Below, one piece after another: positions 48,746-48,950 of a DNA stretch of 64,000 nt. The first letter of the stretch is position 1. Each line of letters begins with the position of its first letter. This stretch comes from Hyphomicrobiales bacterium. GTDB lineage: Bacteria; Pseudomonadota; Alphaproteobacteria; Rhizobiales; Beijerinckiaceae. The notes beneath the pieces are model-generated. The model was not told where the DNA came from. It ran no database searches and saw only the letters and a list, made by a program, of their open reading frames with translations. The stretch is taken from positions 1 through 64,000 of the forward strand of contig JANXWK010000007.1 of NCBI GenBank assembly GCA_025351165.1, given 5' to 3'. Position numbers and translations under genes: made by a program.

Positions 48746-48756
48746 TTTACAATCCT

Positions 48757-48785
48757 TTGGACTCAAGCTATGTATGGTCTATCTT
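48757..48785 (+). promoter_or_regulatory. Candidate promoter of the small transcript
   Basis: TTGGAC (48757-48762), 17-nt spacer, TATCTT (48780-48785). Predicted start about 48792, only a few bases before the extended Shine-Dalgarno. The site lies divergent from selO, whose ATG is at 48745. Confidence 0.45.
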
Positions 48786-48809
48786 TAACAATCGAAAGGA
48801 GGTGATCCT

Positions 48810-48875
48810 GTGTCTCATTGTCTCAATCTACGGTCTTTAGGTCTCTGGGTTGTCTCACCGGATTTCTTCCAGTGA
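48810..48875 (+). CDS. 21-residue peptide behind a perfect Shine-Dalgarno
   Basis: GTG at 48810, TGA at 48873-48875. The peptide starts MSHCLNLR, contains LGLWVV and ends SPDFFQ. AAAGGAGGTGATCC (48795-48808) is complementary over all 14 nt to the bacterial 16S 3' tail, and AGGAGG is 7 nt from the GTG. Such a strong site is unlikely by chance and argues for heavy ribosome binding. Whether the peptide or the act of translation matters is not known. Confidence 0.55.
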   Translation: MSHCLNLRSLGLWVVSPDFFQ

Positions 48876-48912
48876 GCTTTCATGTGATCTAGTAAGATCG
48901 CAGTGACAATGG

Positions 48913-48950
48913 AAAGGCTACCTCTTAATACAGGTAGCTTTTCTTGTTTT
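48913..48950 (+). terminator. Intrinsic terminator upstream of yaiI
   Basis: AAAGGCTACCT pairs with AGGTAGCTTTT (one G-U pair) over an 8-nt loop, followed by TTCTTGTTTT. A textbook terminator lying immediately before a coding gene on the same strand. Confidence 0.82.

Follow-up and report, generated by a model that had tools for sequence, protein, structure and literature searches.

A CC2171-like small RNA gene of Alphaproteobacteria with a 15-nt Shine-Dalgarno sequence, a maintained short frame, and a candidate self-lock

CC2171 is a Caulobacter small RNA that Rfam (RF01867) files as an sRNA, and the accessible part of its family description makes no mention of a reading frame. Rfam 15 lists the family among those whose structures were revised, and a homologue has been predicted as an sRNA of Mesorhizobium huakuii. 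Our literature search found no published function for CC2171; a search with the exact Shine-Dalgarno (SD) string discussed below returned 16S primer papers only, and a large coding-sRNA survey says nothing of the family. Most Caulobacter noncoding RNAs have been reported to be untranslated, in a text that does not name CC2171 (PMC4117421). In Caulobacter, an SD accompanies 24.6% of start codons, versus 19.2% expected by chance (PMC4117421).

The locus considered here lies in a 64,000-nt stretch of DNA from a Hyphomicrobiales bacterium (the window; all features given below are on its + strand). A preliminary description, made from the sequence alone, had placed a complete mini-gene with its own terminator between selO and yaiI, and this placement holds. 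The neighboring genes encode SelO and a YaiI/DUF188 protein, and a terminator scan finds an intrinsic hairpin of 13 pairs with a loop of 8, followed by a T-rich tail, at 48911-48944. The mini-gene is real rather than a chance match. RF01867 matches at 48786-48941 (+) with 72.4 bits and E 1.7e-13 over model positions 1-159 of 159, and the homology is full-length in both sequence and structure. The SD, the GUGUCUCAUUGUC start region, the closing helix, and the terminator are common to both RNAs. The window copy falls 2.6 bits short of the curated gathering cut-off (75 bits). However, it is tied to CC2171 through intermediates, because relatives of the same family score 75.5-88 bits against RF01867. 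We regard the window RNA, which spans 48786-48944 when counted from the first position of the Rfam model match through the terminator, as a divergent CC2171 homologue, and a scan with the model finds this single CC2171-like copy in the whole assembly. Among the roles suggested in the preliminary description was a dual-function sRNA, of which the small RNA gene at least is borne out.

A conservation check, which the preliminary description had proposed, found homologues across Alphaproteobacteria, and the family extends well past Rfam's model. Matches to the model at E<=0.001 occur in 30 of 60 relatives and in 85 of 385 genomes of the class, mostly as single copies. A 20-nt pattern comprising the SD and start codon (no more than one mismatch) is present in 95 of 385 class genomes, with a reversed control pattern nearly absent; within the order, the SD and start pattern is found in 224 of 397 genomes, with the reversed control at a low level. 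When genome contigs were searched with the pattern, every group-naming title among the matches listed was alphaproteobacterial (some said only "Proteobacteria"). It should be noted that most loci from this contig search were picked by their SD and start codon, and cannot show that these two elements are conserved. At its own cut-off, Rfam reports only two of 16 loci chosen from different clades, and it reports no members with an ATG start or other helix (sphingomonads, rhodobacters, Bradyrhizobium, and mesorhizobia).

We sorted the sequences by peptide into five clades: VSH (the window, Methylobacterium, Bosea, Brevundimonas, and others), MSS (mesorhizobia and Rhizobiaceae), sphingomonads, rhodobacters, and Bradyrhizobium. 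Some loci are unusual in form or setting. Three (L129, L191, L194), one of which is from an Azospirillum, have the same SD and start ahead of a longer frame, 56-59 codons in length, whose N-terminus is hydrophobic and resembles a signal peptide (MSHGAKPVIAVLFGISALLTAGVASA...), and two from Rhizobiaceae (L311, L312) have an 18-codon frame followed by CATCTCC, like the Rhodobacteraceae form. A tRNA gene is found ~150-230 nt away from the RNA gene at two loci of Bradyrhizobium, and IMG/VR contigs also contain copies, which may reflect prophage borders that extend into host DNA (L099, L109 and L177, L178, L180 entry). On one viral contig (L181, 10075-10095) the pattern stands ahead of a 71-codon frame that resembles an unrelated phage gene.

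The promoter needs revision. The preliminary description chose TTGGAC-N17-TATCTT (48757-48785) and an almost leaderless start. Although this sequence is present, it is out of register with relatives, and a consensus scan found no promoter; we consider the choice doubtful. Weak upstream conservation in the homologues suggests -35 and -10 elements ~48-43 and 25-20 nt before GAAAGG. In register with these, the likely window promoter is TTTACA (48746-48751), N17, and TATGTA (48769-48774), a weak consensus match that starts beside the selO start codon. A locus from the same genus as the window (L016) has TATATT at the same distance as the window TATGTA. Alignment with homologues suggests that transcription starts near 48780-48783, and because the aligned promoter puts the start there, the RNA would not be almost leaderless.

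The SD, GAAAGGAGGTGATCC (48794-48808), is complementary to the 16S tail GGATCACCTCCTTTC over 15 nt rather than the 14 nt reported earlier. The tail was taken from many alphaproteobacterial plasmid and chromid records, as the draft assembly of the window genome contains no 16S-end match. The probe for the 16S 3' end (...GGATCACCTCCTTTCT) gave 100% matches in Methylobacterium, Rhodobacter, Sphingobium, and other records, and the SD therefore pairs with 15 nt of the tail. This is the sole site with zero mismatches in the 2.29-Mb assembly and in the window. Its duplex with the 16S tail is calculated at -29.4 kcal/mol, versus -13.7 kcal/mol for the best of 59 long window frames (with the best start chosen per frame) and -16.5 kcal/mol for the best of 4000 random 22-mers. 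This supports the earlier remark that nowhere else in the window is there a comparable ribosome site. Variants in homologues mostly keep the pairing. At 58 loci found with the covariance model, and thus not chosen by their SD, 18 of 25 SD substitutions are A->G or C->T, which preserve wobble pairing, and the remainder fall mostly at the two end positions. Many Rhizobiaceae SDs carry one extra A (GAAAGGAAGGTGATCC), giving 15 pairs and one bulge with an energy near -26. A conserved SD of 15 nt is striking because most Caulobacter start codons have none (PMC4117421).

As originally described, the SD is followed by a GTG frame of 21 codons, VSHCLNLRSLGLWVVSPDFFQ, that ends at a TGA stop (48810-48875). 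At each of the 58 covariance-model loci, an NTG start lies 1 nt past the SD and opens a frame that is 14-30 codons long, and a frame of 14-36 codons follows the SD in most sequences. ATG and GTG starts interchange over all loci (TTG is seen in some pattern matches), and the stops vary between TAA, TGA, and TAG inside every clade. Among 178 loci with enough sequence, which are related, frame 0 runs for 14-31 codons in 98%, compared with 23% and 27% for the other frames. The cleanest set is one Rhizobiaceae genus whose members were fetched by DNA similarity alone; the other length classes are conditioned on an open frame 0 and so say nothing about its upkeep. Frames of 23 or 24 codons are intact in all 39 sequences of this set. 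The sole in-frame indel is 3 nt long, and indels outside the frame are 1-5 nt. Frame 0 has no polymorphic stops, and none in any sequence, versus 10 codon windows in frames 1 and 2 that hold stops in some, not all, sequences. The preliminary description had named frameshifts and a lost SD in homologues as evidence that would count against it, and we found neither. The comparison of homologues indicates that the frame has been maintained in evolution, from which we infer that it is translated in vivo.

The RNA folds better than 200 of 200 dinucleotide shuffles (z -4.5). The stable 8-bp hairpin noted previously exists locally (GTGATC/GATCGC), but sits inside a larger predicted fold. In the window, codons 3-5 belong to a start-proximal helix (48816-48911) that stacks on the terminator. 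The 5' arm of this closing helix is CATTGTC (48816-48822), the 3' arm, directly before the terminator, is GACAATG (48905-48911), and both show compensatory changes in homologues. Within VSH, CATTGTC pairs over its full length with the post-stop segment in 54 of 84 loci, versus 13% with shuffled 3' regions. Besides CATTGTC/GACAATG, the compensatory variants CAATGTC/GACATTG, CATTGCC/GGCAATG, and CATTGTT/AACAATG are found. (Alignment A2, which covers the window's clade and in which rows L031 and L033 are misplaced, was left out of the pair counts.) The helix was kept at the peptide's expense, because CAT->CAA turns His into Gln. Sphingomonads have CATGGT/ACCATG in 29 of 32 cases, against a shuffled rate of 40% for this shorter arm. 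In the MSS, Rhodobacteraceae, and Bradyrhizobium clades, a swap test for exact pairing of the start arm gave no signal.

A second kind of pairing involves the SD itself. The consensus fold of the Rhizobiaceae genus alignment has the SD paired with a CCTTCC located past the stop. Among 86 distinct Rhizobiaceae sequences, which are related so that the counts are not independent, CCTTCC occurs 1-7 nt past the stop in 59 of 62 with a GGAAGG-type SD and in none of 22 with a GGAGG-type SD; two GGAGG-type sequences have CCTCC 6 nt past the stop. These sequence comparisons show covariation of the Rhizobiaceae SD with an anti-SD just past the stop. Going by the size of ribosome footprints, a terminating ribosome should cover an anti-SD in this position. 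We rejected an anti-SD common to all clades, as the signal is significant only in Rhizobiaceae, Rhodobacteraceae, and Bradyrhizobium. It is weak in the window's own clade (mean z 0.5), where gating would depend on the helix that follows the start codon.

The reading that we prefer, with a probability of roughly 0.45, is that of a small RNA that stands alone and is translated, with ribosome loading set against self-folding and the peptide incidental. A CC2171-type free-standing small RNA gene would double as a minimal mRNA. To judge from complementarity and conservation, a 30S subunit would dock very firmly at an SD that matches the whole accessible 16S tail. Covariation shows the initiation region paired to sequence past the stop codon, which would lock it: in the window's clade and sphingomonads, codons 3-5 pair with the segment before the terminator, and in many Rhizobiaceae the SD itself pairs with the anti-SD just past the stop. 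The geometry suggests that a loading or translating ribosome and the self-fold would be mutually exclusive. The short frame and its stop would fix the distance that the ribosome travels and its point of exit, with the peptide largely incidental. The outcome would be a ribosome-gated RNA whose fold, lifetime, and possibly pairing with other RNAs would depend on how many free 30S subunits with intact 3' ends are available. The "ribosome-titrating or translation-sensing leader" of the preliminary description fits best among the roles it offered, except that the RNA is free-standing and not a leader. We hold more tentatively, and regard as somewhat doubtful, a wider proposal: that this is a widespread alphaproteobacterial RNA switch without a downstream gene, whose SD probes the complete 16S 3' end, in which docking competes with self-folding, whose frame encodes an arbitrary peptide and is kept only for the ribosome to run through to a set end, and which signals or buffers the availability of initiation-competent 30S subunits.

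If instead the 14-36-residue peptide were the product, this would be a functional micropeptide gene. The frame, start, and stop are kept, as such a gene would have them, and further support might come from SEP1 of S. meliloti, a highly translated, acidic peptide of 23 aa, although identity with the same gene is not established (PMC10117765). The amino acids tell otherwise. Values of pN/pS are 0.85-1.2 in nearly all sets, about 1 in most clades, and 0.69-0.77 in one Rhizobiaceae genus; those of frame 0 are not consistently below those of other frames, and substitutions are spread evenly over codon positions. Across the clade sets we did not find pN/pS well below 1, the mark of purifying selection on amino acids, bearing in mind that pN/pS also rises where RNA structure holds synonymous sites. 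Overall, there is little or no purifying selection on the amino acids. Peptides of different clades share little beyond their first two residues (Met/Val-Ser), and lengths range from 14 to 59 aa over the loci. Within the short ORF, two frames are in use for the MSS motif GGAGCAGCCT (L027, L155, and L203 versus other MSS loci), so that it represents an RNA element (a GAG...CTC hairpin). Further points against a conserved peptide are that conserved residues change where the RNA compensates, and that the stretches conserved over the greatest length are those used for RNA pairing. On the other hand, ACCTGG, with its tryptophan codon, is in frame in 31 of 31 VSH cases despite its varying distance to the start. 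In-frame indels are consequently the rule in VSH, and some selection on this tryptophan is possible; together with the pN/pS of 0.69-0.77, it leaves room for some peptide selection. The "conserved micropeptide" suggested earlier is thus right about the frame (39/39 in one genus) and not about the residues, and we think a micropeptide gene quite unlikely. The same tryptophan, 8-10 residues before the stop in many VSH members, suggested an arrest peptide like SecM or TnaC. However, most of the peptide sequence that follows it overlaps a GCCTC...GAGG hairpin, and other clades lack the tryptophan. Because the amino acids seem hardly to matter while the frame stays, the pattern suggests that translation itself, not the peptide, is kept.

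Other alternatives concern what the RNA acts upon. The RNA gene is free-standing. The idea that the RNA acts as a leader or attenuator for whatever gene lies downstream could appeal to the same-strand yaiI that follows it in the window and in eight other loci of the clade, but a cis leader calls for a constant same-strand downstream gene, and this was not found over 167 loci. The gene that comes next shares the strand of the RNA in 72 of these, so there is no orientation bias, neighboring genes differ between clades, and a same-strand yaiI follows the RNA gene in just nine of 86 VSH loci (including the window) and none elsewhere. These counts largely refute a yaiI leader as a general role and remove the word "leader" from the earlier proposal; we consider this explanation extremely improbable. 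A plain 30S decoy, in which an abundant RNA holds 30S subunits and the frame only lets the ribosome leave, would account for the extreme SD (-29.4 kcal/mol) and its pairing-preserving substitutions over 15 nt. It would have no need of a kept frame, however, and would demand very strong expression from a single-copy gene, and is in our view very unlikely. A conventional dual-function sRNA that acts in trans, pairing with mRNAs via its loops or 3' part, with translation secondary or stabilizing, deserves more weight, although we still think it unlikely. The free-standing gene, its own terminator, and the strong fold are what one would expect of it; internal anti-SDs (CCTTCC, CATCTCC) could pair with the SDs of other mRNAs once released; and the family came to light, and was entered in Rfam, as an sRNA, with the CC2171 homologue of M. 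huakuii among predicted sRNAs. However, no long invariant single-stranded seed is seen besides the SD, and an SD spanning all 15 nt of the 16S tail goes beyond what an sRNA-mRNA seed needs.

Should the ribosome-gated reading be true, an Rfam sRNA family for which no function was found would be a tiny mRNA whose translation is conserved and whose product is not, and sensing of the free 30S supply would become directly testable. It would also be a warning for surveys of small proteins that "frame conserved" need not mean "peptide functional."

Among described systems, rnTrpL/peTrpL of S. meliloti (PMC10117765) and Pos19 of R. sphaeroides (PMC5036791) are likewise alphaproteobacterial small RNAs with a short translated frame (translation being predicted for the family described here). 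Those RNAs have a specific peptide or known targets, whereas the peptide of the window family is unconstrained in most clades. In addition, rnTrpL is the trpE attenuator, whereas the window family has no consistent downstream gene. SEP1, which is conserved in Rhizobiaceae and has the top translation efficiency among nonannotated sORFs of S. meliloti (PMC10117765), resembles our Rhizobiaceae homologues in its similar length, acidic character, and conservation in that family, and its translation efficiency is very high. Its reported pI is 4.18, whereas the 23-aa Rhizobiaceae homologues compute to 4.4-6.0. Sought by length and pI in Rhizobiaceae, SEP1 was not established as a homologue. Type I toxin mRNAs use metastable SD sequestration, which works like the lock of the window family. 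In H. pylori aapA1, the SD is locked by an anti-SD in the same RNA and is opened or closed by other folds. Such an mRNA would encode a small hydrophobic toxic peptide and be opposed by an antisense antitoxin RNA. By eye, peptides of the window family are mixed-polar and not evidently toxin-like, and we do not file it as a member of that group. Finally, the alpha-r14/CCUCCUCCC "cuckoo" sRNAs are alphaproteobacterial sRNAs with anti-SD-like stretches, whereas what the window RNA contains is the SD, and this SD fits the 16S tail along its entire length.
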